In this document: piece after piece, positions 1,819-57,200 of the stretch
Position numbering within the stretch: position 1 is the first letter of the stretch
How the letters are laid out: every line of letters starts with the position of its first letter
Origin: Mycteria americana
Lineage: Eukaryota; Chordata; Aves; Ciconiiformes; Ciconiidae
Assembly (NCBI RefSeq): GCF_035582795.1
Contig: NC_134390.1
Coordinates: 1,937,560 to 2,001,559, forward strand
Reading direction: 5' to 3'
DNA: 64,000 bases
Translations under genes and position numbers: made by a program
Notes under the pieces: generated by a model
Database searches by the model: none
The model's input: the letters and a program-made list of their open reading frames with translations, nothing else
What the model was told of the DNA's origin: nothing

Positions 1819-17389
<15,571 letters not shown>

Positions 17390-20300
17390 GCTCTGAGCCC
17401 CAGCAGGAGGAAACTGCACAAAAGCTGCCATGCTAGAGTAGACGTGTGATGGGAGGCCTACCTCGTGTTTCTGCCCAATCTACTGCTACCAACCAGAAAG
17501 CATGACCTACAGGCTGCTAGGTGGGGTGACGGAGCTTATTGAATTGCTCTCTTCCCTGCTTGGGTATGAAACAATCAGAAACCTTTTATGATCACCTCCT
17601 GACAGCGTGAAGACTTGAGAGGGACTTAACCTGAGGGATCTCAGCCATGATCGTAACTCTTGTTTCTTTAATGGAAATCCCTGTAAAGTTCAGTGCGCGC
17701 GGTGCACCCGTTGGCAGTGTTTGAGGCCGGGGTGCTAGGTGCTGGGAGTGGGAAGGGAAAGGGAAGGTTTTCTTGCCGTACTCTGAGGATTTTTCCAGGG
17801 ACTGGCATGTTAATGCAGAAAAAGCATTTGCAAAACAAATGGTGCTCCCTTCTGAGAGGCTGAGCCTGAACAGTTGATCAGCTTCATGAAACCATTTCCC
17901 TCCTTTTTCTTAAGCTTGAAAAATTCTAAGTCAAAAACAGAAATCTGACTGGCTGTCAGTGTGCGCAATGGTGTATGCATGCGCGAGGTGCGCGTGTCCC
18001 CTGTGCCTGTTCATCTCCTTCCGTAGACGTGCAGTGTCTGCCCGTAGGGTGGCTCATCTCTGTTCGTGCTTTCTGTGCATGTGCAAATCTAGAGTGTCCT
18101 TTTTTTGAGCTGTGCGCGCTGGTGCTCTCCTTGTTGAGTAGTGAGCATTGTCTAGCTTGGACAGGCTGCTTAAAACCAGATCCTTAGCTCTCCGATGGGT
18201 GCTGTGGCCTTGCTGTCCGTACGCCGGCTGCAGGAACTTCCCATCAGGTTGCCTCACTGCCACCCCCTCCCTTTTTTAAGACAAAACAAATGAGGAACTG
18301 ACTTCGCTCCTGGAATCCAGGCTTTTTGTCTTGAGCCCCTGGGGTTTGTAATTCTTGGTAGGGTGGAAAGAGAGACCTGGGGGGGGAGAGATGCCATGGA
18401 GCTGAGATGCATGTCAGAGATAGAGCAGGCACTGCGCCCGGCTGGAAGGAGACCAGGCCGTGGGGAAATGCAGGAGACCGTTCTCATAGGAATGCGATTC
18501 CCGAGTCCACCATCCAGGCACCCTCGCAGGCGCGCTCGGCAGCGTGGGGCAGACTCGTCGGGGCCTGAGCCGCAGGGGGCCGGGTGCCTGGGTGTGCTCT
18601 GCACCCCCCGAGAGGCACTCGGCGCTTGGCAGGATCTGACAGCGGGGTGTGGGTTTGGAAATTGATGTCCATCTTTTTAATATACATATATAAATATCTC
18701 ATAATCTGGAAGTGGCTGTGTATAACTTGTGGGGTGGGGGGAACTGCATGAATTTTCTTTTGATTAAATGCCGAATCAGGGTGAAGTAGAGTTGGTTTGA
18801 CTGTTGTCTACAGCTGGGCCTAGCAAAAATGGAAGTAGCTGAGGGCTGAGTCTGTCGTGCTGATTGCAGCACTGAAGGCAATCTGGGAAGCGCCGGTTGT
18901 TTGGTGGTTAGGTCAGTATCTACGGTATATAACTCTGAAGCCATAACTTTTAACTGGAGTGGTTTTGATTATTATTTTTTTTTATTATTATTTTATGGGA
19001 GGGTCTGGATTTTAACTTTTTTTAATATTGTTAATTCTTTATAAGAGAAGAAAAACAATCTATAATTATTACCTCTTGACCTGTTTGTTTGTAAAGAAAT
19101 CACTGCAAAAAAAAAAAAAGAAAAAAAACCAAATGCACACAGCTCGATTTACACTGGAACTGTTTCTACTCAAACCTTGCGCCTGCTCTGTAAGGTGAGG
19201 TTTCATCTCTGCTCCGGCCACCGGGGTTAACTTTTTTTTTTTTTTAAACACTCTGTTCTTGCTGTCTGTGTATCTGTCTGTGTGTCCGTCTTCCCCCAGA
19301 CTCCCTATCTTGTCTGTGACTTTGTGTAAAGTGAGGAGTGTGGTTTTTGCATTGTGTTTGGAGCCATTTTGCATCCTCCCGTGGAGTTTAGCGGCCGGGC
19401 GGCGCAGAGCTGTCGTGGGGGGGCCGGCAGACTTCGGGCAGGTTCATGGAGCAGTGTGGAGTGTACGCTTTGTGAATGTACAGCTTTCCCTTCCCTTTCC
19501 GATTTGTTCTGACTCGTATCGCAGCCAGAGGTTACGGTGTGTCTCCAGTACCGTACGTCCCTTAACCAAACCCTTCTGCATTTAGAAACCGAGGTGGTGG
19601 GCTCTTCACAGATACCCTAAAGACTCTTCAGCTGCTGTAACAGGACCCTGGCGATGGCCCATCCCGGCGGGTTGGGGAGGAAGTCTTAGCGACTGTGAAA
19701 TAAACTGCCATAGGAAAGCCCATCACGCCGGTAGGTACGTCTGCCGCGCGCTCCTCCGTGAGCACTGCGAGCTCGCGTTTCAGAGTACGAGTCTCCCGTC
19801 CCTGTTAACTGTGCAGGCTGCTTCTCGAGGACACTAAATCAGCTACGTAACTTGCACTGACTCACCCACCCCTCCAACTGTAGCCACACATGCATCTGCC
19901 TCAGCGCTAAACCAAACAGCAGACAGCGGAGCGGTTTCAGACCGGATAAGGTTAGAAGGGGTGAGGGCAGGATGACAGGTTATCCCCTATAAGCAGGATT
20001 GCAGAAGAAGCCTTGTTGGTAGAGAGATGCCATCGCGAGATGGTCAAAACCGAGGAGGATCCGAGATGGGAACGCTGACTATGTAGCATTTATACAGCAC
20101 TTTTCATGCAAACATGTGCCAGGGAGGTGCAGTGCTTACTTAGCTGACTGGTAGCAAACATAGGAATCGCTGCCCGGCTCTGAAATGTGCCCGGCTCAGA
20201 GGTGGCTGCAGTGGCTGTGGAAAAAAACACGACACTACAGACAGTTCAGGACAAGAGACGGACGCCGCAGCGGCTCAGAGCGAGGAGGGGAGACGTCAGA

Positions 20301-22463: not shown

Positions 22464-26291
<3,828 letters not shown>

Positions 26292-33400: not shown

Positions 33401-35757
33401 ATGCCCTGCATCCAGGCACAGTACGGCACGGTGGGCACCGGCCCCTGCGAGCGCTGCCCGGCCGAGCTGCTCAGCCCCGAGGGCGGCCGCTTCCCCATGG
33501 AGGTGGCCGGAGCGGACCTGGCGGCGGCCCCCGCCCTGCCCAGCTTCAGCACCTTCATGGAGGGCTACGCCGGTGAGTTCGACGCCTTCCTCTACCAGCT
33601 GCCGGCCGGCAGCCAGCCCGCCGCCGCCACCGCCTTCAAGCTGGAGGACTTCCAGGTGTACGGCTGCTACCCCGGCGCTTTCGGCGGGCAGCCGGATGAG
33701 ACCCTCTCCTCCAGCGGCTCAGACTGTTACGGCAGCCCCTGCTCCATCCCCTCGCCCGCCACGCCGAGCTTCCAGCCGCCCCAGGCTCCGGGCTGGGAGG
33801 GCTCCTTCGGGGCGTACTCGCCCCCGCCGAACTATGAGGGCGGGCGGCCCTGGGCTGAGCCGGCCAAGGGCGGTGGGTCGCAGCCCCCCTTCTTCGCCTT
33901 CAGCCCCCCGGCACCCAGCCCCGCCGGGTCCCCCGGGACCCTGAAGGGGCAACCGGGCCCCTCGCCCCGCCTGGACCCACGGCTGCTGGACACGGACGCC
34001 TTCGCCCTGGCCCAGGGCTCCCCCGGGGGCTTTGCCGGGCTGCCCCTGGCCCCCGCCTCGCCGCTGCTGGAGGGGCCGGCGCTGGCCCCCACCAAGGCAC
34101 GCAGCCCCGGGGCGGGCGAGGGCCGCTGCGCCGTCTGCGGGGACAACGCCTCCTGCCAGCACTACGGCGTGCGCACCTGCGAGGGCTGCAAGGGCTTCTT
34201 CAAGGTAAGGGGACCCCCCCCGACCCCCAAGAGCTGCTGCCGGGATATTCCCACAATGCTTTGCAGCAGCGGGAGGATGCTGCGGGTCACCCTGGGGAGG
34301 GGCAGGGCAGGGAGCGTGGCCCCGGGAGCCCTCCCCGCGGATGCGGAGCCGGATGCCGGGCTGGAGCGGGAGGCAGGGGAGGACAGAAGGGCTTTTGTTC
34401 GGCGGCTCGGCGCCCCGGGCTGAGCTTGGGCCGCTCCTTCCCCGCCCGCAGCGCACGGTGCAGAAGAACGCCAAGTACATCTGCCTGGCCAACAAGGACT
34501 GCCCCGTGGACAAGCGGCGGAGAAACCGCTGCCAGTTCTGCCGCTTCCAGAAGTGCCTGGCCGTCGGCATGGTCAAAGAAGGTACCAGGGTCCCGTCCTG
34601 AGGTGGGGGGTCCCGGCAGGAGCGGGGGGGCCCCGCTCCGCAGCCCGCCTGGCTGCGCTGAGGACGGACGCGCTCATTGCATGTCCCTCGCCGCAGTGGT
34701 CCGGACCGACAGCCTGAAGGGGCGGCGGGGCCGGCTGCCCTCCAAGCCCAAGCAGCCCCCAGACACGTCCCCCGTCAGCCTCATCACCTCCCTGGTGCGG
34801 GCGCACATCGACTCCGTCCCCAGCGCCACCAAGCTCGACTACTCCAAGGTAGGGCCGGTACCACCCCGCGCCCTCGCCGGGGCTGCGCCAGGGCCGGATC
34901 CTGACCCCGTCCCCGCGGCAGTTCCAGGAGTCGGCCCCGTGCCAGTTCGAGAAGGAGGATTCGGTGGACGTGCAGCAGTTCTACGACCTGCTCACCGGCT
35001 CCATGGACGTCATCCGCAAGTGGGCTGAGAAGATCCAGGGCTTCGCCGAGCTGCCCAAGGAGGACCAGGACCTGCTGCTGGAGTCGGCCTTCCTCGAGCT
35101 CTTCATCCTGCGCCTGGCGTACCGGTGAGCCCTTGGCACGGCACGGCGCGGCGCGGCGGGGAGCCCGGGGCCGCGCCGGGGGGGTGACGCGTGGTTGTGC
35201 CCGCAGCTCCAAGCCGGAGGAAGGGAAACTCATCTTCTGCAACGGGGTGGTGCTGCACCGCCTGCAGTGCGTGCGGGGCTTCGGCGAGTGGATCGACGCC
35301 ATCCTCGAGTTCTCCCAGAGCCTGCACCGCATGAGCGTCGACATCCCCTCCTTCTCCTGCCTCGCCGCCCTCGTCATCATCACAGGTGAGACGCCCCCCT
35401 CCCCGCTCCCCACCCCGCCGCCGTCCCCTTCCCCGCCCTGCGGCCGTCACCCTGGCCTCACGCCTCCATGTGTGTGTGTGTGTGTGTGTCCCCCACCTAG
35501 ACCGCCACGGGCTGAAGGAGCCGAAGCGGGTGGAGGAGCTGCAGAACCGCATCGTGGGCTGCCTGAAGGACCACGTGGCAGCGGCGGGGGCCGAGCCGAG
35601 CCGCCCCGGCTGCCTCTCCAAGCTGCTGGGCAAACTGCCCGAGCTGCGCAGCCTCTGCACCCAGGGCCTCCAGCGCATCTTCTACCTGAAGCTGGAGGAC
35701 CTGGTGCCGCCGCCGCCCATCGTCGACAAGATCTTCATGGACACGCTGCCTTTCTGA
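33401..35757 (+). CDS. NR4A1: Nuclear receptor NR4A1 (Nur77/NGFI-B)
   Basis: Orphan nuclear receptor and immediate-early transcription factor that binds NBRE/NurRE sites and acts without a classical ligand. Coding exons: 33401-34204, 34452-34581, 34697-34848, 34922-35124, 35207-35385, 35501-35757, giving 574 residues (human 598). The start [10 protein letters not shown] is the family signature. The N-terminal AF-1 is Ser/Pro-rich with [19 protein letters not shown] and [14 protein letters not shown]. The two-zinc-finger DNA-binding domain begins at C243 ([15 protein letters not shown]-box CEGCKGFF) and runs to GMVKE, followed by the basic extension [14 protein letters not shown]. The ligand-binding domain ends in [10 protein letters not shown]. 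The acceptor lies two bases before the start codon. NR4A2/NR4A3 are excluded by the N-terminus. No defect is seen. Confidence 0.97.
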
Positions 35758-39362: not shown

Positions 39363-40155
39363 ATGAACTGCCGCGCGGAGGTGCTGGAGGTGTCGGTGGA
39401 GGGTCGGCAGGTGGAGGAGGCCATGCTGGCGGTGCTCCACACCGTCCTGCTGCACCGCAGCACCGGTAAGTTCCACTACAAGAAGGAGGGCACCTACTCC
39501 ATCGGCACCGTGGGCACCCAGGACGTGGACTGTGATTTCATCGACTTCGCCTACGTCCGCGTCTCCTCCGAGGAGCTGGACCGGGCCCTCCGCAAGGCTG
39601 TCGGGGAGTTCAAGGTAAGGAGCCCCAACGGGGAGCCGGCAGGGCTGAAAGCGGGAGCTTAAAAACCCGCGGGCTGTGCCGTGTCCTCGCCTGCGAGGGG
39701 AAGGTCAGTCCCTGGCCCCCCCTAAGCGGGGCCACGTGCTCTCTCGGCAGGACGCGCTGCGCAACTCGGGCAGCGATGGGATGGGGCAGATCTCCCTGGA
39801 GTTCTACCAGAAGAAGAAGTCACGCTGGCCTTTCTCGGATGAGTGCATCCCCTGGGAGCTGTGGACCATCAAGGTGAACGTGGTGAACCTGGCTAACGAG
39901 CAGGAGCGGCAGATCTGCCGGGAGAAGGTGGGCGAGAAGCTCTGCGAGAAGATCATCAACATCGTGGAGGTGATGAACCGCCACGAGTACCTGCCCAAGA
40001 TGCCCACCCAGTCGGAGGTGGACAACGTCTTTGACACCAGCCTGAAGGACGTGCAGCCCTACCTCTACAAGATCTCCTACCAGATCACGGACTCCCTGGG
40101 CACCTCGGTCACCACCACCATGCGCCGGCTCATCAAGGACACGCTGGCTCTGTAG
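39363..40155 (+). CDS. ATG101: Autophagy-related protein 101, HORMA subunit of the ULK1 complex
   Basis: ATG101 pairs with ATG13 through HORMA domains in the ULK1-FIP200-ATG13 complex that starts autophagy, in the cytosol and at phagophore sites. Two coding exons, 39363-39614 and 39751-40155, join in frame to 218 residues, exactly the human length. It begins [20 protein letters not shown] and ends [10 protein letters not shown]. The WF finger that recruits downstream factors is intact: SRWPFSDE puts W110 and F112 at the positions known in human. A 5'UTR acceptor at 39325 implies at least one upstream noncoding exon. Near-complete identity to human shows strong constraint despite the repetitive surroundings. 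Confidence 0.98.
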
Positions 40156-40710
40156 GGCCGGATGCCACCGAGGCAGGTTCACCCCGCGTGGTGGCACCTC
40201 TCCAGCACAGCCCCTGGCTCTTTGGGACAGCGTCTCTGCTTGGATCCTTCCTCTCTGCCTCCAAAAAGCGTCTGCAGGGAGCTGGACTCGGCCTGGCCCT
40301 TAACTGAGGGTTGCTGCCGGTTTGGTTTGCGCTGTGGGGCACTCGCCGGTCCCGGAGAACCGGCTCGGTGACTCCCAGGTTGGCTATGGGGTGGTGAGTC
40401 CTCGAGGCGGGAGCTGCTGGTCGGCACGTGCGGCACCGGCACCGGCTCAGCGCTGGGCTTGTGGCCCGGCAGAGCGATGCTGTGGGTCGGCACGGAGCGG
40501 GGATGGCGTCCGAACCCTGTCCGGCCCTGCCTGCGGCCGCTCTCCAGCTCACCCTGCGCGGCACAGCCAGCACCAGCCCGGTCCCTCGTCACCGCGCGTG
40601 TGTCCCCCGGCAGCACCCTGGTCCCTGGGACTGAGCCGCTTCCCTGTGGGGCCCGGAGATGAACTCGCTGCCTCCTCTGGGGCAAAAATAAAGTATTTCT
40701 TCTTTCACAC
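40156..40710 (+). other. ATG101: ATG101 3' untranslated region
   Basis: About 550 bases from the stop codon to just past AATAAA at 40687-40692. Nothing else is recognised in it. Confidence 0.8.
40687..40692 (+). terminator. ATG101: ATG101 polyadenylation signal
   Basis: Canonical AATAAA in an A/T-rich island (AAAAATAAAGTATTTCTTC) within GC-rich sequence. Confidence 0.85.
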
Positions 40711-41064
40711 GGAGTCTCGTCCCCTCCTGGCTGATGATGGGGCCGGCATCCACGGCATGGGGGGGAAACAGGCGCCGAGGCTGAGCTGGGGGACCCCATC
40801 GTGTCCCCGTGCCGTGGGGCTCGCCGGCCGCAGTGGGATGGGGCAGTGCTGCCCACCCCCCAGCAGCGATACCCTGAGTGGGGCTGCCCCCCAAGCGCAG
40901 CCAGGGGAGGGGACGGGGCGATCCCGCTTCCATGCAGGACTCTGCGCCCCTCCGCAGCACCGAGGGGGGGGCAAAGCCGCTTCCCCCGCCCGGGGGGGAG
41001 CATCGGCGGGGCACCGGCCTCTCAGCAGGGCGAGGGGGGCCGTGCGGGTGGCTAAGACGGTCCC

Positions 41065-41072
41065 TGACATCA
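41065..41072 (+). promoter_or_regulatory. CRE-like element upstream of the Reprimo-like gene
   Basis: TGACATCA lies 89 bases before the start codon and differs from the CRE consensus TGACGTCA at one base. No TATA box is evident. Assignment is tentative. Confidence 0.25.
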
Positions 41073-41160
41073 CTTAAACCCTCCCCGTCTGTCGCTGACC
41101 CACCGCTGCCCCGCGCACCCGCACTCCGCTCCGGGGAGGAAGAGGAGGAGGAGGAGGAGA

Positions 41161-41375
41161 TGAACGCCAGCACGCAGGCCAGCGCCTGGGGGGACGTGCG
41201 GGTGGCCGAAGCCGCCCAAATCACCGTCGTCCTGGTGCTCTGCCTCACCGTCGCCTTCGCCGTCTTCTTCCTCGGCTGCAACCTGCTGCTGCGGGCGGAG
41301 AGTCTGGCGGCAGCCCCGGCGCAGGGGGAGCGACGGCCATCCCGCGAGGCCGAGGCGGCCGCCGAGGGGGCGTAG
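41161..41375 (+). CDS. RPRM3: Reprimo-family membrane protein (third Reprimo lineage candidate)
   Basis: Reprimo proteins are small glycosylated single-pass membrane proteins; RPRM is p53-induced and tied to G2 arrest. This single-exon frame gives 71 residues. It starts MNAST, like RPRML's MNAT with an N-glycosylation sequon at residue 2. One membrane helix spans about residues 20-42 and ends in the family signature AVFFLGCNLLLRAES (RPRM GIFFLGCNLLIKSE). The tail carries ERRPSREAEA (RPRM DRRPSKEVEA), keeping the RRPS site. Human RPRM is 109 residues; the N-terminal outer segment is about 38 residues shorter here and the helix-to-RRPS linker has diverged. The intact frame, conserved motifs and a nearby poly(A) signal argue for a working gene. 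An in-frame upstream start at 40878 lies in low-complexity sequence and is disfavoured. The symbol is provisional: family membership is firm, the orthology to the RPRM3 lineage is inferred from motif and neighbours. Confidence 0.85.
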
Positions 41376-41545
41376 GTGACCGGCGGATGGATGGACGGAC
41401 GGATGGACGGACGGACGGATGGATGGACAGCAGCGTCTTTGTCCGCAGCGTCTTCGACGGCACTTGGGGACGGAGCGGGATGGCGCCGGGGGCCGCAGCG
41501 TCCCCGGCTCGTACAGATGGATTAAAAGGCAACGGGGCCAGCGGA
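41376..41545 (+). other. RPRM3: 3'UTR of the Reprimo-like gene, with a GGAC/GGAT tetranucleotide repeat
   Basis: A (GGAC/GGAT)n repeat covers about 41386-41428 directly after the stop codon. ATTAAA at 41521-41526 is a plausible poly(A) signal. Confidence 0.55.
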
Positions 41546-42159
41546 GGCACTGGGGGGGCCAGTCCCGGGGCCGGGTCTGGATCCGGCCGGGGGCGCGGCG
41601 GCGCTGGTAATCCTCCCCGAGGGGATTAGAGGAAACTTTTATTCCCTGTTTCAGAGCTAATCCCTGGGCTGGCGGGGCCGGCGCTGCTCGGGGAGGGTCT
41701 GGGGCCGCATCCTGCCCCTCCGAACCCCTTGTACCCCCGCCAGCAGAGACGCCAGGGCCGCACCCTGCCCCCCCCAAACCCCTTCTGCCCTTCTCCGAGG
41801 GCTGCAGCCACCGCACCCCGCTCCTCCCCGCCCTTTAGACCCTGCTGGCAGGGATGCAATGGCCGCATCCTGCCCCAAACCCCCTGCGAGCAGGGGGTCC
41901 CGTGGCCCCGTCCTGCCCCTCCGTGCCCCCCTTTGCTCTCCCTCGGTGATGCTCAGGCCGGATCCTCCCCCTCCATTGCTCCCGGGGCCGCATCCTGCCC
42001 CTCCACCCCTCTGGCAACCCCCCCCCCGCCCCGGTCCTAAGCTGCTCCCAATCCTCCGCAGCTGCTGACAGTGGGGGGGAACCGGGGCCACCCCACCCCG
42101 GAGCGGGGCTGGCGATGTGGGGGGGCTTCTCCCCCCATCAAACCGGAGGGGGCCCCCCC
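41546..42159. other. Short intergenic gap between convergent Reprimo-like gene and FMNL3
   Basis: C-rich, with degenerate repeats of a CCGCATCCTGCCCC core (about 41700-42010). No exon is seen. Confidence 0.5.
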
Positions 42160-42852
42160 CCCCACCTTAATCCCACAGCTTTAATAACACCCCTGCAAAG
42201 CTCTGCTTAAGGGTCTGGTCCCTGCACATGCATGCCCCCCCCCCCCCCCCCGGGACATGGGACCCCCAGCATGGGGGGGCTCCCCGGACGCCTGGGTCCC
42301 CTCTGCGCCTTCCCCCGACCCCCCCCCCCCCGCCCCCAAGCAGGCAGCGGCCATGTAAAAGACTCCATATATTTCACATGTACAAAAAGGCACTGGGGGG
42401 GGCGGGGGGGGGGGGGGGGAGTCCGGGGGGATCCGGAGGGGGGGGGGCACCATCCTGCCGCCCCCCCTCCCCCACCCCGGCCTGGCTTTGGTCCCTTTTT
42501 TTTGGCAATTAGTGTTCACATCAGTGGTCAAAGTGACGAGCGCGGAGGGGGGCGGGGGGGCCCCCGTGGTCCCCACGGCAGGATGGGAGCTCTGGGGCAG
42601 TGACCCCCACGGGGACGAGGGAACCCCGATGGGGAGGGGGCACCCCCACGGGGCGGCACCCCGTGGGGCAGCCACCGCCGCTGGGCCCCCACCGCAGCCG
42701 GAGGCAGGATTCGGCCTCTGCTGCAGGCGGACCGGGAGGGGTCCGGGCCACAAGTCCCCCCCCCGGGTGGCGGGGGGGACGGGGACATCGCCTGCGAGCC
42801 CAGGCGAGGACGGTGGCCCGGGATGTCCCTGCGCGGTGACCTCCCCTCAGAC
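42160..42852 (-). other. FMNL3: Probable terminal 3'UTR exon of FMNL3
   Basis: On the minus strand an acceptor (CTCTGCCCCGCAG, preceded by a long pyrimidine tract) ends at 42853. The following sequence runs to ATTAAA at 42185-42180. The stretch 42350-42540 is less GC-rich than its surroundings and contains TACATGTGAAATATATGG and GCCAAAAAAAAGGGACC on the minus strand, the look of a genuine 3'UTR. Assignment to FMNL3 rests on strand, splice signals and the absence of any other minus-strand gene. Confidence 0.5.
42180..42185 (-). terminator. FMNL3: Candidate FMNL3 polyadenylation signal
   Basis: ATTAAA on the minus strand. I found no AATAAA or ATTAAA between the FMNL3 stop codon and this site. 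Confidence 0.5.
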
Positions 42853-42966: not shown

Positions 42967-43086
42967 CTGCGGGCTGCGGGACGGAAGGGACAGGGTCAGG
43001 GGACCCCCGGCCTGGCCCGGGGGACGGTCCCGGGTGACCCCAGCGGGGCCGAGGCAGCTGGGGGCCAGTCCTCCAGGCACCAGGCT

Positions 43087-44152
43087 GGGACCCAGTATTG
43101 CACTGGGACCCTGCACTGGGACCCTGCACTGGGACCCAGTATTGCACTGGGACCCTGCACTGGGACCCAGTATTGCAGTGGGACCCAGTATTGCACTGGG
43201 ACCCTGCACTGGGACCCAGTATTGCACTGAGACCCTGCACTGGGATCCAGTATTGCACTGGGACCCAATATTGCACTGGGACCCTGCACTGGGATCCAGT
43301 ATTGCACTGGGACCCAGTATTGCACTGGGACCCTGCACTGGGACCCAGTATTGCACTGGGACCCAGTATTGCACTGGGACCCTGCACTGGGACCCAGTAT
43401 TGCACTGAGACCCTGCACTGGGATCCAGTATTGCACTGGGACCCAATATTGCACTGGGACCCTGCACTGGGACCCAGTATTGCACTGGGACCCAGTATTG
43501 CACTGGGACCCTGCACTGGGACCCAGTATTGCACTGGGACCCAATATTGCACTGGGACCCTGCACTGGGATCCAGTATTGCACTGGGACCCAATATTGCA
43601 CTGGGACCCTGCACTGGGACCCAGTATTGCACTGGGACCCAGTATTGCACTGGGACCCTGCACTGGGACCCAGTATTGCACTGGGACCCAGTATTGCACT
43701 GGGACCCTGCACTGGGACCCAGTATTGCACTGGGACCCAGTATTGCACTGGGACCCTGCACTGGGACCCAGTATTGCACTGAGACCCTGCACTGGGATCC
43801 AGTATTGCACTGGGACCCTGCACTGGGATCCAGTATTGCACTGGGACCCAGTATTGCACTGGGACCCTGCACTGGGACCCAGTATTGCACTGGGACCCAG
43901 TATTGCACTGGGACCCTGCACTGGGACCCAGTATTGCACTGGGATCCAGTATCGCACTGGGACCCTGCACTGGGATCCAGTATCGCACTGGGATCTTGCA
44001 CTGGGACCCAGTATTGCACTGAGACCCTGCGCTGGGACCCAGTATTGCACTGGGACCCAGTATTGCACTGAGACCCTGCGCTGGGACCCAGTATTGCACT
44101 GGGACCCAGTATTGCACTGGGACCCTGCACTGGGATCCAGTATTGCACTGGG
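43087..44152. repeat. 49/31-bp minisatellite after the FMNL3 stop codon
   Basis: Built from an 18-base module CCCAGTATTGCACTGGGA and a 13-base module CCCTGCACTGGGA, arranged 18+13 or 18+18+13. About 1.07 kb. Copies differ by few single-base changes. Stop-free frames of several hundred codons on both strands are artefacts of the unit. Confidence 0.95.
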
Positions 44153-44369
44153 ACCCCCCACTGCAGCAAAGCCCCCCCATGCTGGAAACCCAGCCCTGCG
44201 CCAGGACCCGCACTGGGACCCCGCCTGGCATGGGGATCCTGTGCTGGGGCTCGGCCTGCGGTGGGATCTGTGCTGGGATCCGGTGTCGCACTGGGACCCT
44301 GTGCTGGGACCCTGCACTGCATCGAAGACCCCATGCCAGAAACCCAGCCTTGCACCGGGATCCGGTGCC

Positions 44370-45080
44370 TGGAACCAGCCTTGCACCGGGATCCTGTGCT
44401 GGGATCCTGTGCCGGGATCCTGTGCTGGGACCCAGCCTTGCACCGGGATCCCGTGCTGGGATCCTGTACCGGGATCCTGTGCTGGGACCCAGCCTTGCAC
44501 CAGGATCCCGTGCTGGGATCCTGTACCAGGATCCTGTGCTGGGACCCAGCCTTGCACCGGGATCCCGTGCTGGGATCCTGTGCCGGGATCCTGTGCTGGG
44601 ACCCAGCCTTGCACCGGGATCCCGTGCTGGGATCCTGTGCCGGGATCCTGTGCTGGGACCCAGCCTTGCACCGGGATCCCGTGCTGGGATCCTGTGCCGG
44701 GATCCTGTGCTGGGACCCAGCCTTGCACCGGGATCCTGTGCTGGGATCCTGTGCCAGGACTCTGTGCCGGGAACCAGCCTTGTGCTGGGATCCTGTGCTG
44801 GCACCCAGCCCTGCACCAAGATCCTGTGCTGGGATCCTGTGCTGGCACCCAGCCCTACACCAGGATCCTGTGCCGGGACCCAGCCTTGCACCGGGATCCT
44901 GTGCTGGGGATCCTGTGCCAGGATCCTGTGCTGAGACCCAGCCTTGCACCGGGATCCTGTGCTGGGGATCCTGTGCCAGGATCCTGTGCTGGGACCCAGC
45001 CTTGCACCGGGATCCCGTGCTGAGATCCTGTGCCAGGACTCTTGGGCTGGGACCCAGCCTTGCACCGGGATCCCGCGTCA
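44370..45080. repeat. 57-bp GGGATCCTGTGCTGGGA minisatellite
   Basis: The marker CCCAGCCTTG recurs 57 bases apart (for example 44431 and 44488) through about 45000, with GGATCCTGTGCTGGGA modules inside each unit. It abuts the preceding array; the sequence between them (44153-44370) is a degenerate mixture. Confidence 0.93.
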
Positions 45081-45204: not shown

Positions 45205-48200
45205 CTAACAGCTGGACTCGTCGTGGTGGGACGGGTCGCAGAAGAAGCGCGAGCCCCGCTTGGCGGTGCGGGCCGTGAAGGGGACGCTCTTCAGCGCTGC
45301 AGGGGGGCACGGGCGGGGAGGGGGGGACAGGGAGACGTCAGCCCCCGCACGCGGGCGGGACGCGGCCGGCCGGGCGGCGAGGGGCGGCGGGGGCCCGTAC
45401 CGGTGATGATGTCCTCGATGGTGCCGTCCTTGCCCTCGTAGACGGGGCGATGGTCCTTGGCCTGGCGCCGCCGCAGCTCCGCGATCAGCTCCTGCTGCTG
45501 CCACTTGTTCCGCTGCGAGGCAGGCGCGGGGGTCCCAGGTTGGGGACGCAGGCGTCCCCTCCGTGCCGCCCCCCCCGGCCCACCCGCGCGCCCACCCACG
45601 CTCACCTTCTCCTGCTTCTTCGCCTCCTGCGCCAGCAGCTTCTCCCGCATCACCTCCTCCTGCTTCTTCCGCATCTCGTTCTCCTGCTCCGCGTCCTGCC
45701 GGGGCGAGGGGGTGGCGGTGGGAGCCAGCTCCCCCCCGGCCCCCCCGGCGCCAGTGCCACCAACCCCCCGCACGTCCCCTCCCGGCCGTTCCTCACCTTG
45801 TAGGAGCGGATGAACCGGACAAAGACCGGGAAGAAGACGGACGGGGGGGTCGTCTTGGGGCTCTCACCGAAATACCGCACCACGGTGTTGTAGGCGTCCT
45901 GGAAGAGGGGACGGGGCGGTCACCGACGGGCTGCGCGTCCCACGGCTCCCGGCAGCCTCCCGGCACGAGGAGCGTGCAAAGCAAGGTGGGCACGAGGGCC
46001 GTGCAAAGCAAGATGTGCACGAGGGCCGTGCAAAGCAAGGCACGCACGAGGAGCGTGCAAAGCAAGGCACGCACGAGGGCCGCGCAAAGCAAGATGTGCA
46101 CGAGGGCCGTGCAAAGCAAGGCACGCACGAGGAGCGTGCAAAGCAAGGCACGCACGAGGGCCGCGCAAAGCAAGATGTGCATGAGGGCTGTGCAAAGCAA
46201 GGCACGCACGAGGAGCGTGCAAAGCAAGGTGGGCACAAGGGCCGTGCAAAGCAAGATGTGCACGAGGGCCGTGCAAAGCAAGATGTGCACGAGGGCCGTG
46301 CAAAGCAAGGCACGCATGAGGAGCGTGCAAAGCAAGATGTGCACAAGGGCCGTGCAAAGCAAGGCACGCACGAGGAGCGTGCAAAGCAAGGTGGGCACGA
46401 GGGCCGCACAAAGCAAGATGTGCACGAGGGCCGTGCAAAGCAAGGCACGCACGAGGAGCGTGCAAAGCAAGATGTGCACGAGGGCCGTGCAAAGCAAGGC
46501 GTGCATGAGGGCCGTGCAAAGCAAGGCACGCACGAGGAGCGTGCAAAGCAAGGTGGGCACGAGGGCCGCGCAAAGCAAGATGTGCACGAGGGCCGTGCAA
46601 GGCAAGGCACGCACGAGGAGCGTGCAAAGCAAGGTGGGCACGAGGGCCACGCAAAGCAAGATGTGCACGAGGGCTGTGCAAAGCAAGGCACGCACGAGGA
46701 GCGTGCAAAGCAAGGTGGGCACAAGGGCCGTGCAAAGCAAGATGTGCACGAGGGCCGTGCAAAGCAAGGTGGGCACGAGGGCCGTGCAAAGCAGGGCACG
46801 CACGAGGAGCGTGCAAAGCAAGGTGGGCACGAGGGCCACGCAAAGCAAGGCACGCACGAGGAGCGTGCAAAGCAAGGTGGGCACGAGGGCCGTGCAAAGC
46901 AAGGCACGCACGAGGAGTGTGCAAAGCAAGGCACGCACGAGGGCCGTGCAAAGCAAGATGTGCACGAGGGCTGTGCAAAGCAAGGCACGCACGAGGAGCG
47001 TGCAAAGCAAGGCACGCATGAGGGCCGCGCAAAGCAAGATGTGCACGAGGGCTGTGCAAAGCAAGGCACGCACGAGGAGCATGCAAAGCAAGGTGGGCAC
47101 GAGGGCCACGCAAAGCAAGGCACGCGTGCATGAGGAGTGTGCAAAGCAAGGCACGCACAAGGGCTGTGCAAAGCAAGATGTGCACAAGGGTCGTGCAAAG
47201 CAAAGCACACACGAGGAGCGTGCAAAGCAAGACAGGTGTACATGAGGAGCATGCAAAGTAAGGTGTGCGTGACAAGGTGTGCACAAGGAGCATGCAAAGC
47301 AAGGCACAGGCAAGGACCGTGAAAAGCAAGGCACGCACGAGGAGCATGCACAGCAAGGCAGGCGTGCACGAGGAGCGTGCAAAGCAAAGTGTGCATGACA
47401 AGGAGTGCACAAGGAGCATGCACAGCAAGGCAGGCGTGCACGAGGAACATGCAAAGCAAGGTGTGCGTGACAAGGCATGCACGAGGGTCGTGCAAAGCAA
47501 GGCACAGACAAGGACCGTGAAAAGCAGGCGTGCATGAGGAGCATGCACAGCGAGGCAGGCGTGCACGAGAAGCGTGCAAAGCAAGGTGTGGATGAGGGCT
47601 GTGCAAAGCAAGGCAGGCACGAGGACCGTGCAAAGCAAAGTGTGCGTGACAAGGCGTGCACGAGGACCGTGCAAAGCAAGGCACAGACAAGGCTGTGAAA
47701 AGCAGGCGTGCATGAGGAGCATGCACAGCAAGGCAGGCTTGCACAAGGAGCGTGCAAAGCAAGGTGTGTGTGACAAGGCGTGCACGAGGAGCGTGCAAAG
47801 CAAGGCATGCACGAGGGTCGTGCAAAGCGAGGCGTGCATGACAAGGCATGTACGAGGAGCGTGCAAAGCGAGGCATGCACAAGGGCTGTACAAAGCAAGG
47901 TGTGCATGACAAGGAGTGCACAAGGAGCGTGCAAAGCGAGGCATGCATGACAAGGCATGTACAAGGAGCATGCAAAGCGAGGTGTGCACGAGGGCCGTGC
48001 AAAGCAAGGCGTGCATGACAAGGAGTGCACAAGGAGCGTGCAAAGCGAGGCGTGCACGAGGGCCGTGCAAAGCAAGGCATGCATGACAAGGAGTGCACAA
48101 GGAGCGTGCAAAGCGAGGCGTGCACGAGGGCCGTGCAAAGCGAGGCATGCGTGACAAGGCATGTACGAGGAGCGTGCAAAGCGAGGCGTGCACGAGGGCC

Positions 48201-51200
48201 GTGCAAAGCGAGGCGTGCATGACAAGGCGCGCGCGAGGAGCATGCAAAGCGAGGCGTGCACGAGGGCCGTGCAAAGCAAGGCGTGTGTGACAAGGAGTGC
48301 ACGAGGAGCGTGCAAAGCGAGGCGTGCACGAGGGCCGTGCAAAGCAAGGCGTGCGTGACAAGGAGTGCACGAGGAGCGTGCAAAGCGAGGTGTGCACGAG
48401 GGCCGTGCAAAGCGAGGCGTGCGTGACAAGGAGTGCACGAGGGCCGTGCAAAGCGAGGCGTGCATGACAAGGCGCGCGCGAGGAGCGTGCAAAGCAAGGC
48501 GTGCACGAAGGCCGTGCAAAGCAAGGCGTGCGTGACAAGGAGTGCACGAGGAGCGTGCAAAGCGAGGCGTGCATGACAAGGAGTGCACGAGGGCCGTGCA
48601 AAGCGAGGCGTGCGTGACAAGGCGCGCGCGAGGAGCGCGCGAGGCACGGCCGCTCCCCGGCCCTCACCTCAGCCGTCCGTGCGTCCTTCTGCAGCCGCTC
48701 CAGCTTGCCCTCGCTGGCGGCCAGGAAGGAGCGCAGGACGCTGTTCTCGTGCAGGCCGCACTCCCGCCGCAGCAGCTCCATGCCCCGGCCCAGCTCCTTC
48801 ACGTCCAGCAGCACGTTCTCCAGGGACACTGGGGGGACACTGACGGGTCAGGGCCCCGCAGCCCCGGGGGACGGCGAGGCAGGGGCGCGGGGCCGGGGGG
48901 CACCTGCGGCCGCCTTCTCCACGAAGTGCAGCTCCTGCCAGAAGGTTGCCAGCTCGGGGTACTTCTCCCGCACCGTCAGCGCGATGAAGTGCAGCAGCGT
49001 CATCTTCCTGTCCGTCGACTTGGTGTCCAGGAGCTGCGGGGTAGTTTGGGGGGGGGGCGCGGGGGGTCAGGGCTGCGGGATGGGACCCCCGGGAGCCCAC
49101 GCGGACGCGGGCAGGAGGTCCGGGGGTGCCCACCAGGTCCAGGCTCTGCAGTTTGAAGCCGTAGACGGCACCACGTTTGCTGCTGTTCATGTAGTTGCCC
49201 AGCGCCAAGATGATCTGCACGGGGAAAAACAGCGGGAAGGGGGGGGTCAGGGAGGAACGAGACCCCCGCGGGACCCCCCCCGCCCGGCTACGGCAAGGAT
49301 GGAGGGCAGGACTCCGACCCAGCCGGTCCCCACGTCCCCCGGTCCCCCTCCGACCACGCTCACCTCCAACATGTGCTTCAGCTTCTGGGAGGACTTGACG
49401 GAGGCCGAGGCCGCGATGATGGCGTTGAGCTGCTGCAGGGGGACAGGAGGGCAGGGCTCAGGTGGGGCGGGGGGGGTCCGGGCACGCCCCGCGGGTGCGA
49501 TCCCCCCCTCCCCGGCTCCATACCGGCGTCAGCATCTGGAGGTTTTCGGTGAAGTTGCCGAGGAAGGCCATGATGGCCATGCGCTGGGGCAGCCGCTCCA
49601 CCTTGCTGAACTGCAGCATGAAGCGGTCCTCGTCCGCCAGCTCCTCCAGCGGCTTGCGCTCCCGCTCGTACTGCCGCAGCGCCTTCACCTCCGCCTCCGT
49701 CGGCAGGAACCGCATCAGGCACTCCACAAAGTCCACCGGCAGCGTCGCCAGGTCGAACCTGCCCCGCGCCCGCGCCGTTGGGGACCAGCTCCCCGCTGCG
49801 CCCTGCCTGGGCCCCCTGCACCCCAACCGCCCCCCCTGCACCCTGCCTGGGCCCCCTGCACCCCAGCCAGACCCCCCTGCACCCTGCCTGGGCCCACTGC
49901 ACCCCAGCCAGACCCCCTGGGCCCCCTGCACCCCAGCCGGACCCCCTGCACCCTGCCTGGACCCCCTGCACCCCAACCACCCCCCCTGCACCCTGCCTGG
50001 ACCCACTGCACCCCAACCACCCCCCCTGCACCCTGCCTGGACCCACTGCACCCCAACCAGCCCCTTTGAACACTGCCTGGCCCCCCTGAACCCCAACCAG
50101 CCCCTCCTGCACCCCAGCCAAACCCCCTTCACCCCAACCAGCCCCCTTGAACACTGCCTGGCTCCCCTGAACCGCAGCCAGCCCCCCTGCACCCTGCCTG
50201 GACCCACTGCACCCTGCCTGGACCCACTGCACCCCAATCGCCCCCCCTGCACCCTGCCTGGCCCCTCTACACCCCAGCCAGACCCCCTGCACCCTGCCTG
50301 GACCCACTGCACCCCAACCAGCCCCCCCTGCACCCCAGCCAGATCCCTTGAACCCTGCCTGGCCCCTCTACACCCCAACCAGCCCCCCTGCACCCTGCCT
50401 GACCCTCTGCACCCCCTGCACTTTGCCTGGCCCCCCTGCACCCCAGCCAGACCCCCCTGCACCCTGCCTGGACCCACTGCACCCCAACCACCCCCCGTGC
50501 ACCCTGCCTGGACCCCCTGCACACTAGCCAGCCCCCCAGCACCCTGCCTGGACCCACTGCACCCCAGCCAGCCCCCCCTGCACCCTGCCTGGACCCCCTG
50601 CACCCCAGCCAGACCCCTTGAACCCTGCCTGGCCCCTCTGCACCCCAACCAGCCCCCCTGCACCCTGCCTGGCCCTCTGCACCCCAACCAGCCCCCCTGC
50701 ACCCTGTCCGGACCCACTGCACCCCAGCCAGACCCCCTGCACCCTGTCTGGACCCACTGCACCCCAGCCGGACCCCCTGCACCCTGCCTGGACCCCCTGC
50801 ACCCCAACCGCCCCCTCTGCACCCTGCCTGGACCCACTGCACCCCAGCCAGCCCCTTTGAACACTGCCTGGCCCCCCTGAACCCCAACCAGCCCCTCCTG
50901 CACCCCAGCCAAACCCCCTTCACCCCAACCAGCCCCCTTGAACACTGCCTGGCCCCCCTGCACCCCAGCCAGCCCCCCTGCACCCTGCCTGGACCCACTG
51001 CACCCCAACCACCCCCCCTGCACCCTGCCTGGCCCCCCTGCACCCCAGCCAGACCCCTTGAACCCTGCCTGGCCCCTCTGCACCCCAACCAGCCCCCCTG
51101 CACCCTGCCTGGACCCCCTGCACCCTGCCTGGACCCACTGCACCCCAATCAGCCCCCCTGCACCCTGCCTGGACCCCCTGCACCCTGCCTGGACCCACTG

Positions 51201-54200
51201 CACCCCAATCAGCCCCCCTGCACCCCAGCCAAACCCCCTGCACCCCAGCCAGCCCCCTTGAACACTGCCTGGCCTCCCTGCACCCCAGCCAGACCCACTG
51301 GGCCCCCTGCACCCCAGCCGGACCCCCTGCACCCTGCCTGGACCCCCTGCACCCCAACCGCCCCCCCTGCACCCTGCCTGGACCCACTGCACCCCAGCCA
51401 GACCCTTTGAACACTGCCTGGCCCCCCTGAACCCCAACCAGCCCCTCCTGCACCCCAGCCAAACCCCCTGCACCCTGCCTGGGCCCACTGCACCCCAGCC
51501 AGACCCCCTGCACCCTGCCTGGACCCACTGCACCCCAACCACCCCCCGTGCACCCTGCCTGGACCCCCTGCACACTAGCCAGCCCCCCAGCACCCTGCCT
51601 GGACCCCCTGCACCCTGCCTGGACCCACTGCACACCAGCCAGCCCCCCTGCACCCTGCCTGGACCCACTGCACCCCAGTCAGCCCCCCTGCACCCCAGCC
51701 AAACCCCCTGCACCCCAGCCAGCCCCCTTGAACACTGCCTGGCCTCCCTGCACCCCAGCCAGACCCCCTGCACCCTGCCTGACCCTCTGCACCCCCTGCA
51801 CTTTGCCTGCCCCCCCCTGCACCCCAGCCGGCCCCCCTGCACCCCAGCCAGACCCCCTGCACCCCAGCCAGCTCCCCAATACCCCCCCGCCCCCCACTGC
51901 ACCCCGGCACGGGGGCACGTACGTGTGGATGGCCCTGCAGATCTCCTCGGCGCTGCGGCCCGCCTTGCGCAGGGTGATGGCCAGGTTCTTGGCGCGGTTG
52001 GCCTCCAGCAGCGTCACCTTGCTGGCTGCCTTCTGCGACGCCTTGTTCTTGGCACAGACGAGGTCGAGGGCCGGACCCTGCGCCTTGGTCTTGAAGAGCT
52101 CCTCGAAGCGTTCCAGGTCAAGGTCCTGGTGGAACGAGGCAGGGGGGGCTCAGAGGTGGCAGCGGCGGCGGTGGCGCCCACCCAGCCGCTCGGGCCAGGA
52201 GTCCCGAGCTCACCTCCAGCACCCGCTCGTCGTCCAGCTCGCTGAACACCGTCCCGCTGATCTGGTTGGGCTTCAGCGCCGTCCAGTTGAAGACGGGCAG
52301 CCGGAACTTGGTCTTGATGGGCTTCTTGATCCGGATGGCTGCCAGCGGGGCAGGAGCCAGCTCAGCCCCCGCCGGGGCAGGGGGACGCATCCTGTGCCCA
52401 CCCTGAGCCACCCGAGTCCGGCGCATCGGTCCCCAAGCTGTCACCATCCCCTGGGCCTCCCCGGCCCCATCCCGTGGTCCCTGCACCCCTCCCTTGGCGA
52501 CCGCAACCCCGACGCTCCGGTTCCTGCAACCCTTCCCCCGTCCCCACGGCCTCTCCGTCCCCGTCCCCACGGCCTCTCCGTCCCCGTCCCCACGGTCCCC
52601 GCGCCCTCCCCACCTACCCGAGAGCCCGACAGTGAGGGCGATGGAGGGTGAAGCCCCAGGCAGCGGCGGGGCCGGGGGGCACTTGCCTGCGAAGGGAGTA
52701 GGGGGTGAGCCCCTGCCCCGGCGGGGACGGCCCCGTTTAGGGGACACCCCGGGGACCCTCACCTGGGAGTGGGGGGGCGGGGGGCGGCAGGGGGGGCGGC
52801 GGAGGGGGCGGGGGGGGCGCAGCCTCCACGGGGGGCAGGACGGGGAGCCGCAGGGCCTCCTCCAGGGGCTCGGGTTCGGGCCGGGGAGGGGGCTCGGTGC
52901 CCGGTACGGGGGGCGGCTCGGAGCCATAGCGCCGCCGGAAAGCCTCGTCCTTCTCCTTGATCATCCGCCGCAGCGTGTGCACTTGGTGGCTCGTGTGCTC
53001 GTAGGTCTCCTGGGGATGGCGAGCGTCAGGCTCGGGGCGGGGGGGGGCCAGGACCCTGCCCCACGGCCCCCGCGGCCCCACCACGCACCTTGACCACCTC
53101 CAGCTCCTTCTCCCGCTGCAGCAGCTGCTTCTCCAGCTCCGCCACCCGCATCATGTTCTCGTTCTCCAGGTCCAGCAGCTTCTCCGTTAGCTGCGGGGGG
53201 GGGGACACGCACACGGCTGTGACGCCGGCTCGGGGACCCCCCGCCCGGTATCACCGCTGACCTCCCCGGGGGCAAAGCCAGACCCCGGGAGGGGACGCCC
53301 CGGGACCCGGCGAGGAGGGGCCCTGCGTCCCCCCGCCCACACGTACGTGGGACAGATGCTCCTCCAGCTCCTCCACCTTCTCCAGGGCCACGTTCTTGGT
53401 CTCGGCGTCCTCCAGCAGCCCCCCCACGTCGAAGACGTTGTCCAGGTACGCCTGAATCTGCACCTGCAGCTTCTCGCTCTCCGTGTGCCTCGACTTCTGC
53501 GGGCATCGGGGCAGCGTCAGGGACGGGGGGGGGACGGGGGCTCCTCGGGGCAGCCCCCTCAGCCCCCCCCGACCCCCCGTACCTGCAGGAACTCCTCCAG
53601 CCCCAGCTTGGTGAACTCGTACTGGAGGTGGACGCGGAAGTTCATGTCCTCCACCGAGTGCACCACGATGTTGATGAACTGCATGCAGGCGACCTGCGGG
53701 CAGGGCTGGCGTCACCAGGAGCCCCCCCAGCACCCCCTGCCGTCCCAAAGCCCTCCTCGCCCAGGACCGGGTTGGCCCACCATGAAGTCGATGCTGCTGT
53801 CCTCGTTGCGGAAGTAGTCCATCAGCCGCTCGAAGCGGTGCTTCTCCTTGCAGACCTGAGCGGGCAGCAGACGCGGGGTTAACCTGGCTTGGCCACCCCC
53901 CACCCCCCCAACCACCAGCCCCCATCCCCTGGGCTCCAGTCCCCTACTCCCAGTCTGGTCCTGGTGCCCCCAGACCCCCCAGTCCAGCCTGGCCTCGTCC
54001 TCCTTCATGGCCCCATCCCCTGCGCTCCAGACTCCCCATCCCAGCCTGCTCCTGGTGTCCGTTCCTCCCTTCCCTGGGTCCTGGTCCCTGATCCCAGCCT
54101 GCTCCTGGTGTCCCCAGTCCCCCCCCCATCCCAGCCTGCTCCTGGTGTCCCCAGTCCCCCCCCCATCCCAGCCTGCTCCTGGTGTCCCCAGTCCCCCCCC

Positions 54201-57200
54201 ATCCCAGCCTGCTCCTGGTGTCCCCAGTCCCCCCCCATCCCAGCCTGCTCCTGGTGTCCCCAGTCCCCCCCCCATCCCAGCCTGCTCCTGGTGTCCCCAG
54301 TCCCCCCCCCATCCCAGCCTGCTCCTGTCTCCCCCCAGGTCCCCCCCATCCCTGCCCCTGCTCCCCCCGTACCTCCTTGAAGTTGTCGAAGGCAGCGAGG
54401 ATGATCTCGTGGCCGCCCCTCACCAGGCAGACGGCCGCCAGCAGCTCCAGCACCAGCGCCTTCGTCCTACGGCAGAGCAGCACCGGCACCGTCACACCCG
54501 GCCGGCACCGGGGACCCCCACCCTGCCAGCCCCCCCCCCCCCCGCCCCTTACCTGGGGTTCTTGTTATTGAGGCTCAGGGCGATCTCGTTGACGGCGTGG
54601 GGATGGGACATGACCAGGTTGAAGCCGTACTGCGGGCAAGGAGCGGGGACGGCGTTAGCGGCGCCGGCACGGCAGCGGCACTGGGGGCATTGGCGTCGTC
54701 CCCCCCGCAGGGCGGCGGTACCTGGTAGTTCATGATGGCCCGGAGACACATGATGCAGAGGTGGACGTCGTCCTTCTGGCTCACCAGGCGCGAGTTCTTC
54801 AGCGCCCTGCGGCTCGGCAGCGTGCCATAGCTGGGGGGACACCGGGCACCGGTGAGCGGGACCCTCGCACTGCCGGTGCTGCACCGCCAGCGCTCGCCCG
54901 GGCGGGAACCAGCCCCGCGGGACCACGGTGGGGACCAGGGTGGGGACAGCGTGGGGACAGCGGGGCTTTCGAAGGGGCAGAGGAAGAGAGAAGCGGCCGG
55001 AGGGCGACAGGGACAGAGGCTGGCGGAGACGCGGAGCGAAGCCGCCACGAGCGCCGGGCCGGCCCCAGGCAGCCGGTACTTACCCGGCGGGCGAGCGGCG
55101 AGGCGGGTGCGGAGAAGAGAGAGAGAGAGCGCAGCCAGAGAGGGGGGGCCCCGGCCCTGGAAGCAGAGACGGGGCGCGTTACCCCGGGGCGCGGGGGCAG
55201 AGCCAGAGCGGGGGCGAGCGGAGGCAGCGTGGCCGCAGCAGGCAGAGGGACGGGGCGGGCGGCGCGGGCAGGACGGGGACGGCAGCGCCGAACCGCTGCG
55301 GACGAGCAGGGCACGGCACGCCCGGCCGGCAGGATGGGACACGGCACGCGAGGCAGCGCAGGCTGCGGCACGCGTGGCACGTGCCCACGGCACAGCCACA
55401 CCGTGGGGCAGCCGGCACACGGGACGTGGCACGTACCATGCACGCGATGGCGCACGACACAGGACAGGACAGCACGTGGCACAGCACGCACCACGGGCAG
55501 GACGGCGCGTGGCACGGCACGCACCACGGGGCAGGATGGCACGCGGCACGGTACGCACCACGGGCAGGGCAACGCGTGGCACGGGGCGGGATGGCGCACG
55601 GCACAGCACGCGCCGCGGGCAGGACTGTGCACGGCACAGGGCACGATGGCACGGCACGCAGCACGGGCAAGACGGCGCAACGGCACAGCACGCACCGCGA
55701 GGTAGCGGGCACGCGGCACGCGCCACGGGCAGGACGGCGCGTGGCACGGCACGCAGCAAGCGGCAGCACCGCAGCCAGCCGGAGCCGGCAGAGCCGGGCA
55801 GGTGCTGGGCGCAGCGGCGGGACGTACCCCTGCAGCCGGCCGGCGTGGCGGGTACGTACCGTAGGGCGGTCTGGCGGGCAGAGCGGGCGAGGCTGCTGGC
55901 GAAGGGGGCGGGCAGGGCGCTGGGGTGCTGCAGATCCTCGATGGACCTGCTCCAGGCGCGCAGCTTCTCCAGCGCGCCGTCCTCACCGCCTTCCAGGCCC
56001 TCAAAATCCAACCTGGGTGGGACACGCGCGCGGGGAGGGGCACACGGCTTTGGCGCGGAGCGGCGCGGCCACCGCAGCAAGCGCGGAAGCGGGTGGCGGC
56101 TGGGCAGCGGCAGGGCAGGGAGAAGCGCGAGGGTGGCCCTGGGGACCCCCAGCCCCAGCCCGGGCGGGCAGGAGGGGGGGGGCCGAGCATCCCACGTCCC
56201 CCGGGACCCCACGGCAGGCGGGTCCCCACGTGCCGGCCAGGCTGCCCCGGTGCCGATAAGGGGCCAAGCGGTGTCGGCCACCTGCAGCAGGGAGCAGCCA
56301 CGGGGCACCGGGACCCTTCACGTCGCAGGTCCCCCAGCACCCCGGGACCCCCAGCACCCCACTCACATGACGGCGCACTGGGCGAAGGACAGGTAGTTCA
56401 CCAGCACGTCCAGCCCCTTGTTCTCATCGTTGAGGAACTCGCGCACCCACCTACGGTACCAGGCACCCATCAGGGCCCGCGGGAGCCGGGGACCGCCGGC
56501 ACCCCCCGGCGTGATCCACGGGCGCCCCCGGCCCGCCGCAGGGATGGGGAGGGGGTGGCGGGGGCATCTCCGGCGGCCGTTGCGGCCCCTCCGCTATCGC
56601 CCGTGCCAGCGCCGGCACGGCTTTATCTGCCGGCTGCAGAGCGGGGAGGGCTCGGCCCGGGGCGCGAGGCGGGAAGCCGAGCTGGGCGCTGGGGCCGTGC
56701 CCCCGTCCCCAGCCCTGGGCACCCCGGGGTGGGGGGGTTCGGGGTGCCCCGGCCCCCTGGGAGGGTGCTAAGGCGCACGTGTGAGGTGCTGCGCAGGGCA
56801 AGGAGCCCGGCTGGGATACGTCCGGGGACAGGGACGTGGGGGGGGGGTGCAAGGGGGGTGTGTGGGCGTATGGGGGGGGGGTGCACGTGGTGTGTGTGTG
56901 CATGGGATGTGCATGGGGGGGGTGTCCATTGGGGGGGTGCATGGGGGGGTGGGTGTATAGGGAGTGTGCCCAAGGGGTGCGTGGGCACGGGGGGGCGTGC
57001 ATGGAGTGTGCGTGTGTACGGGGAGCGTGCACAAGGGGGGGTGTCCACTGGGGGGGTGTCCATTGGGGGGGTGTCCATGGCAGGGGGTGCACGGGGAGAG
57101 GGGCAGCGTGCACGGGATGTGCATGGGGGGGGGGCTGCACATGGGGCAGTGCCTGCACAGGGAGAGGGACCGTGCACATGGGGGGGGGCTCCATGCACGG

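Follow-up and report, generated by a model that had tools for sequence, protein, structure and literature searches.

A short third Reprimo gene beside FMNL3 in the stork Mycteria americana: very likely an avian RPRM3, and most likely the counterpart of mammalian SMIM41

The open reading frame at 41160..41375 (+ strand) of the window, that is, of the whole 64,000-nucleotide stretch of Mycteria americana DNA that was analysed, is very likely an ortholog of RPRM3 in birds and most likely corresponds to mammalian SMIM41. RPRM3 would be the third Reprimo gene born of the vertebrate genome duplications. It is also quite probable that RPRM3 was never lost in tetrapods, that human SMIM41 is the third human Reprimo gene, and that birds carry the most reduced form of the protein, with an ectodomain near the minimum for N-glycosylation. 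The original prediction of an intronless third Reprimo ohnolog with a short N-terminus in a bird is upheld by the presence of three family loci in the stork genome, by a conserved chromosomal position, and by a short ectodomain shared with other bird-type copies.

The coding frame

The frame, delimited as an open reading frame and named from protein searches and subfamily profiles, is intact and uninterrupted from the ATG at 41160 to a stop codon ending at 41375; read from the genome sequence alone, it is the single exon of 71 codons expected of the Reprimo family. The MNAS start, the FFLGCNLL and ERRPS motifs and the length of 71 residues were as originally predicted, while the start itself had been placed at 41161, one base too late. 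A G occupies position -3 of the ATG. GC content by codon position is 76/55/92%, and a gap between the third and second positions as large as this (GC up to 0.80) was found in 429 of 30433 stop-free 71-codon frames at 22-64 kb (1.4%), a rough control that excluded NR4A1, the RPRM3 frame and 48.4-58.5 kb and still contained TAMALIN, ATG101 and the last FMNL3 exons. An ATTAAA poly(A)-like signal lies 146 bases 3' of the stop codon at 41521..41526 (+ strand), the sole AATAAA or ATTAAA within 41377-42300, and a CpG-island-like stretch spans the gene at 41001..41750 (CpG observed/expected 0.96 and 0.92, against 0.33-0.79 in 12 other windows).

No Reprimo family was recognised in the window protein, in RPRM or in RPRML by the Pfam set used, which was without PF27763, the family annotated on the retrieved Reprimo-family proteins. 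No PDB chain matched the 71-residue protein at E<=1, and an Rfam search of 39-43 kb yielded no match.

Relatives and the reduced bird form

With the 71-residue protein as query, 13 proteins were retrieved at E<=0.01 among 17 candidates from 5.8 billion proteins searched (best E 4e-31): 11 bird-type proteins (ten of 70-73 residues, one of 123), including those of Limosa lapponica and Bubo scandiacus, and two from lizards. From a profile search, of which the best 120 of 610 matches were listed, came a further four bird-type copies, Zosterops supplying two of them, together with additional squamate sequences, two from side-necked turtles, and three fish proteins named 'homolog 3'. At least 15 other bird-type copies, 4 of them from named species, have the short ectodomain, and counterparts of ordinary length occur in at least 14 squamate and at least 2 turtle sequences. 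Among the matches listed there was neither a crocodilian RPRM3 nor a chicken copy, which says nothing about absence. No match in the protein search was named as the stork's own copy; with clustering of the database at 90% identity and a closest match at 90-92%, that is no proof of an unannotated stork gene. A 2018 review holds, in its accessible part, that all tetrapods have lost RPRM3 and that it persists solely in coelacanths and in cartilaginous, holostean and teleost fish (PMC6073456), a statement that the bird and reptile copies contradict.

The comparison table comprised 16 bird-type rows (the window included; the bird status of 11 of them was inferred from the tree), 14 squamate rows (11 named), 2 turtle rows and 11 fish RPRM3-type rows. 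The ectodomain, counted up to 17 residues before FLG, measures 14-20 residues in bird-type, 48-56 in squamate, 50-53 in turtle and 46-57 in fish rows, the script under-counting four fish rows in which an inner start was chosen; birds have thus lost about 30-40 ectodomain residues. The loss of some 38 residues claimed at the outset is accurate against mammalian RPRM (71 versus 109 residues in all, 19 versus 57 in the ectodomain). The KSESMIN[LM]L segment is replaced in birds by forms such as RAESLAAAP, and neither the juxtamembrane MIN[FLM]L block nor RPRM's terminal tyrosine is retained. Nor were a CC motif and a DERSLYI-like stretch found in the ectodomain, CC being present in 0/16 bird-type rows; CC is likewise missing from Lerista, three snake RPRM3 rows, one RPRM row and one RPRML row, and, not being universal in the family, was not taken as defining.

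Fish RPRM3 (zebrafish rprm3 and the Pangasianodon, Chanos and Heterodontus copies, the last three named 'reprimo homolog 3' by NCBI) is likewise a third lineage with the FFLGCNLL core and the RRPS tail, but the 11 fish-type proteins are 102-108 residues long and carry CC, whereas the bird proteins combine their trimmed ectodomain with the absence of MIN[LM]L. The squamate and turtle proteins, which bear names such as 'reprimo-like', 'reprimo A-like' and 'small integral membrane protein 41' (the last being the NCBI name of the Emydura copy), run to 99-107 residues from the presumed start, with a full ectodomain, a mostly kept KSESM block, and an MNxS/T sequon in 13 of the 14 squamate rows and one of the two turtle rows. 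VLCL in the membrane segment is seen in 14/16 bird-type, 11/14 squamate and 2/2 turtle rows versus 1/11 fish rows, and an RxSRE tail in 8/16 bird-type and 9/14 squamate rows versus 0/2 turtle and 0/11 fish rows.

What is retained in birds is the Reprimo arrangement of a membrane segment ending in FFLGCNLL followed by a short RRPS tail. The best 19-residue hydropathy window covers residues 21-39, and the RRxS tail occurs in 15 of the 16 bird-type rows, Limosa being the exception. The predicted N-glycosylation sequon at Asn2 (MNAS in the stork) is present in all 16. Across a set of 16 rows (12 bird-type, 2 lizard, RPRM and RPRML), N2, E47, R58, S61 and FLG are invariant. By count along the aligned sequences, stork S61 would be the equivalent of RPRM S98, which the accessible part of PMC6073456 lists as a potential phosphorylation site.

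Such reduction raises the possibility that RPRM3 is a relic, decaying in birds under relaxed constraint, with a stork frame that is intact by luck. Besides the large ectodomain loss and the disappearance of MIN[FLM]L, the stem to the bird clade is long (1.89 changes per column from the midpoint root), and mean pairwise ectodomain identity among 11 of the 16 bird-type rows is 0.63. The same 11 rows, however, average 0.86 in the membrane segment and 0.78 in the tail, and each of the other 15 bird-type copies is open from an MN start over 65-73 residues, except for one of 85; since the databases contain predicted intact reading frames, dead copies in other birds would be invisible. Identity to the stork copy is 79% in the owl, 81% in the godwit and 68% in the most distant of ten compared. 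Simulated neutral drift left mean identities of 81%, 74%, 67% and 61% at 0.10, 0.15, 0.20 and 0.25 substitutions per site (maxima over 300 runs 83% at 0.20 and 78% at 0.25), so that the owl and godwit values lie above the means for 0.20 and 0.25. As these distances were assumed, the identities lend weak support to constraint, and a true distance of 0.10-0.15 would make the stork-owl value neutral. On balance, decay of the gene is considered unlikely, and the copy may be functional, as supposed at the outset.

A second, less probable alternative concerns the extent of the product. The RPRM3 frame is open back to 40878, and the true protein might start upstream (ATG at 40932 or GTG at 40878), the 71 residues being merely its end. 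The segment at 41063-41159 is open in phase with RPRM3 and reads SLTSLKPSPSV followed by a glutamate run, a pattern also found 5' of P0131, P0142, P0143 and P0144; in these four other bird-type copies the upstream translation recurs in phase with small changes (SLTSLKPS[PL]SV plus a glutamate run). The first part of this segment, at 41063..41093 (+ strand), is a probable core promoter or 5' UTR element, with a CRE-like TGACATCA and a TTAAA box at 41074; the promoter-like motif is absent at the stork RPRML locus and has a single match with 3 mismatches at the RPRM locus, not upstream of the gene. The recurring flank may be either a conserved promoter/UTR or a coding extension. Against the longer product stand the probable TTAAA box within the upstream part, its ending in a glutamate run, a spacer to the gene that differs in length among the copies, and the MNxS/T start common to stork RPRM, stork RPRML and 13/14 squamate copies. 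A start upstream of 41160 is accordingly regarded as very unlikely.

Placement among the Reprimo genes

The tree was computed from 70 rows and 109 columns, the rows being hand-picked from 198 retrieved proteins; those passed over included a second Podarcis model (P0153) and numerous copies of RPRM and RPRML. All 16 bird-type rows form one clade (100/100), birds, turtles and squamates group at 91/78 (not starred), and all RPRM3 types are set apart from RPRM, RPRML and lamprey at 90/77 (not starred). AU tests accept the birds with RPRM (p 0.54), RPRML (0.55), fish RPRM3 (0.55), bird RPRM (0.49) or bird RPRML (0.48). In a reduced tree (ten rows out, stricter columns) the best free topology does not keep RPRM3 together; holding groups together gave p values of 0.21 (all RPRM3), 0.38 (sauropsid RPRM3), 0.44 (birds with squamates), 0.21 (birds with RPRM) and 0.24 (birds with RPRML). 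In the phylogeny that the original prediction had called for, the bird clade was not found inside RPRM or RPRML, but the AU tests accept either placement, and the tree by itself does not fix the long bird branch.

Subfamily profiles are clearer than the tree on this placement. For the 16 bird-type rows, the best profile was squamate and turtle RPRM3 in 13, fish RPRM3 in 2 and RPRM in 1 (by 0.3 bit), and the fish RPRM3 profile outscores the RPRM and RPRML profiles in 15/16. The stork protein itself scores 60.5 bits with RPRM3 against 50.6 with RPRM and 51.1 with RPRML. Some margins are small; the RPRM and RPRML profiles each contain two bird sequences, and the search that supplied the fish RPRM3 rows and most of the squamate ones had three bird-type rows in its profile, which may favour the RPRM3 profiles.

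Three Reprimo loci were located in the 1.35 Gb stork assembly: RPRM3 on C26 (the contig of the window), RPRM at C9:43068823 and RPRML at C22:4554554. They are the only three places found at E<=10 with the window protein as query, and a turtle RPRM3 query finds the same three, then two matches at E 0.5 and 5, and no other RPRM3 in the stork genome. The window protein aligns with stork RPRM at 46% identity and likewise with stork RPRML. These two paralogs share the architecture of RPRM3 and each has an FMNL-type gene on its contig; they differ in their lengths (115 residues for RPRM, 111 for RPRML), in their full ectodomains with CC, and in their tails.

The gene order on C26 is TAMALIN (+), NR4A1 (+), ATG101 (+), RPRM3 (+) and FMNL3 (-). 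The naming of ATG101 and TAMALIN, like the assignment to NR4A1 and to FMNL3 inside the two larger families, rests on uncurated human query sequences; NR4A and FMNL family membership was taken from PDB chains. TAMALIN (GRASP) spans 22464..26288 (+ strand; tblastn matches at 25213-26288, with a first exon at 22464 recognised by eye as MTLRRLRRL...), NR4A1 spans 33401..35754 (+; NR4A chains of PDB and tblastn), and ATG101 spans 39363..40152 (+; tblastn matches at 39363-39644 and 39691-40152, with an AATAAA at 40687). FMNL3 is convergent with RPRM3 at 45208..54829 (-), an extent given by matches only; its last coding exon, near 45208, lies about 3.8 kb from the RPRM3 stop. Four pieces of the C-terminal FMNL exons match the human FMNL3 query at 65-91%, FMNL2 at 52-86% and FMNL1 at 40-60%, so that the downstream neighbour was correctly predicted to be FMNL3. 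PDB chains do not settle the subtype: an FMNL1 chain comes first and FMNL2 second both for the N-terminal FMNL exon in the window and for the exon on C9. Pfam found nothing in read-through frames at 1-10 kb (+ strand, three frames) and 22-33 kb (one frame on each strand).

Minisatellites with 49 and 57 bp units take up about half of the RPRM3-FMNL3 gap at 43085-45075, and the FMNL3 span holds further arrays at 45963-48637 and 49812-51905 (about 47 x 27 bp, units of 68-177 bp, and about 103 x 20 bp). GC content changes sharply, from 0.45-0.51 at 4001-20000 to 0.60-0.79 at 22-64 kb.

On C9, RPRM is flanked by FMNL-type matches at C9:42886133-42887718, about 0.18 Mb away, and, on the opposite side, by the NR4A-type match that ranks best outside C26 (C9:43776923, 0.71 Mb away), giving the order FMNL-type (42.89 Mb), RPRM (43.07 Mb), NR4A-type (43.78 Mb). 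This order matches that of FMNL3-RPRM3-NR4A1 on C26, as duplication of a whole block would predict, and places the stork gene within an FMNL3/NR4A1 block parallel to that of RPRM. The RPRML contig has an FMNL-type match (C22:5894748, about 1.3 Mb from RPRML) and carries no NR4A-type match among the 12 obtained; the next-best NR4A-type match outside C26 is on C2.

The same evidence bears on whether a retrocopy of RPRM or RPRML landed beside FMNL3 in the bird ancestor. Such a copy would look alike, as the family genes are intronless, and the AU tests tolerate birds with RPRM and with RPRML; yet it would have had to land by coincidence in precisely the slot that SMIM41/RPRM3 occupies between ATG101 and FMNL3, 15 of the 16 bird-type rows fit an RPRM3 profile best although the competing profiles contain bird sequences, and the turtle query leaves the stork without any other RPRM3. 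An ancestral retrocopy is consequently deemed highly improbable, and a recent one is rejected, the RPRM3-type copy being, on the evidence of the sequences compared, old and common to the bird-type set. Chance occurrence of the frame is dismissed by its database relatives and its 46% identity with stork RPRM and RPRML, and contamination by its position together with the flanking genes on a contig of 2,993,650 bases. Viral contigs, scanned for stray DNA from birds, yielded no relative.

SMIM41 and the possible role of the bird protein

The accessible part of a cattle gene list gives KRT80, SMIM41, ATG101, NR4A1 and TAMALIN (PMC8505495), and the stork RPRM3 lies beside ATG101 and NR4A1 just as cattle SMIM41 does in that list. 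Because of this shared slot and the NCBI name of the turtle copy, mammalian SMIM41 is most likely RPRM3, and the original supposition that the third lineage is absent from mammals is probably wrong. SMIM41 was described in 2019 as a small coding gene added to the human set after a PhyloCSF scan (PMC6886504, accessible part). The available portions of these two papers do not name it a Reprimo gene, and no published statement linking RPRM3 with SMIM41 was found in a search that covered the open literature, most subscription journals and preprints lying outside it; the four papers there that mention RPRM3 and the four that mention SMIM41 do not overlap. The literature search likewise found no paper on reprimo with microchromosome, nor on bird missing genes with NR4A1.

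Human SMIM41, of about 93 residues, was also compared directly, using an uncurated sequence. Its profile scores are 41.8 bits for fish RPRM3, 36.8 for squamate and turtle RPRM3, 36.2 for RPRML and 34.8 for RPRM; none of 300 block shuffles reached 41.8 bits, the shuffle maximum being 13.2. A single hhalign comparison with RPRM3 profile A3, made without a control, returned a probability of 97.5. In BLASTP, this SMIM41 sequence reached E 0.71 against the turtle copy and gave no match with the window protein. The likeness of this uncurated sequence to RPRM3 is regarded as a lead.

By homology with RPRM, the bird RPRM3 would be a single-pass membrane microprotein with its N-terminus outside or luminal, a helix at about residues 20-43 and a short cytosolic tail. 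The minimum ectodomain length that permits N-glycosylation would be about that of the bird ectodomain. Asn2 would be N-glycosylated, as in RPRM, and the ectodomain may have been reduced to a glycan anchor. Given an ectodomain trimmed to 14-20 residues, any role of RPRM3 in birds must rest on the helix and the tail, and most likely it is the helix together with the basic, serine-bearing tail that does the work; S61 in the RRPS motif is a candidate basophilic-kinase site that could act as a regulated docking switch. Expression in nervous tissue is probable by analogy with zebrafish rprm3. For RPRM, p53-dependent G2 arrest activity has been described (PMC6509255, accessible part). The bird protein is a natural deletion experiment in which helix and tail are set apart from the ectodomain.

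Its family is a known one, of which the bird gene is a variant, and with it comes a probable correction of mammalian gene history. Humans are credited with two of the three Reprimo genes in the accessible part of the 2018 review (PMC6073456); should the locus argument hold, they have three, the third having been reported as coding only in 2019 (PMC6886504, accessible part). If so, studies of how RPRM and RPRML act in cancer and in the development of blood may need to count a further paralog.

A passerine-type form was seen in P0131, P0142, P0143 and P0183, two of them from Zosterops, with an ectodomain of 14 residues, a length of 65 residues in three of the four, and a tail without the REAE part.
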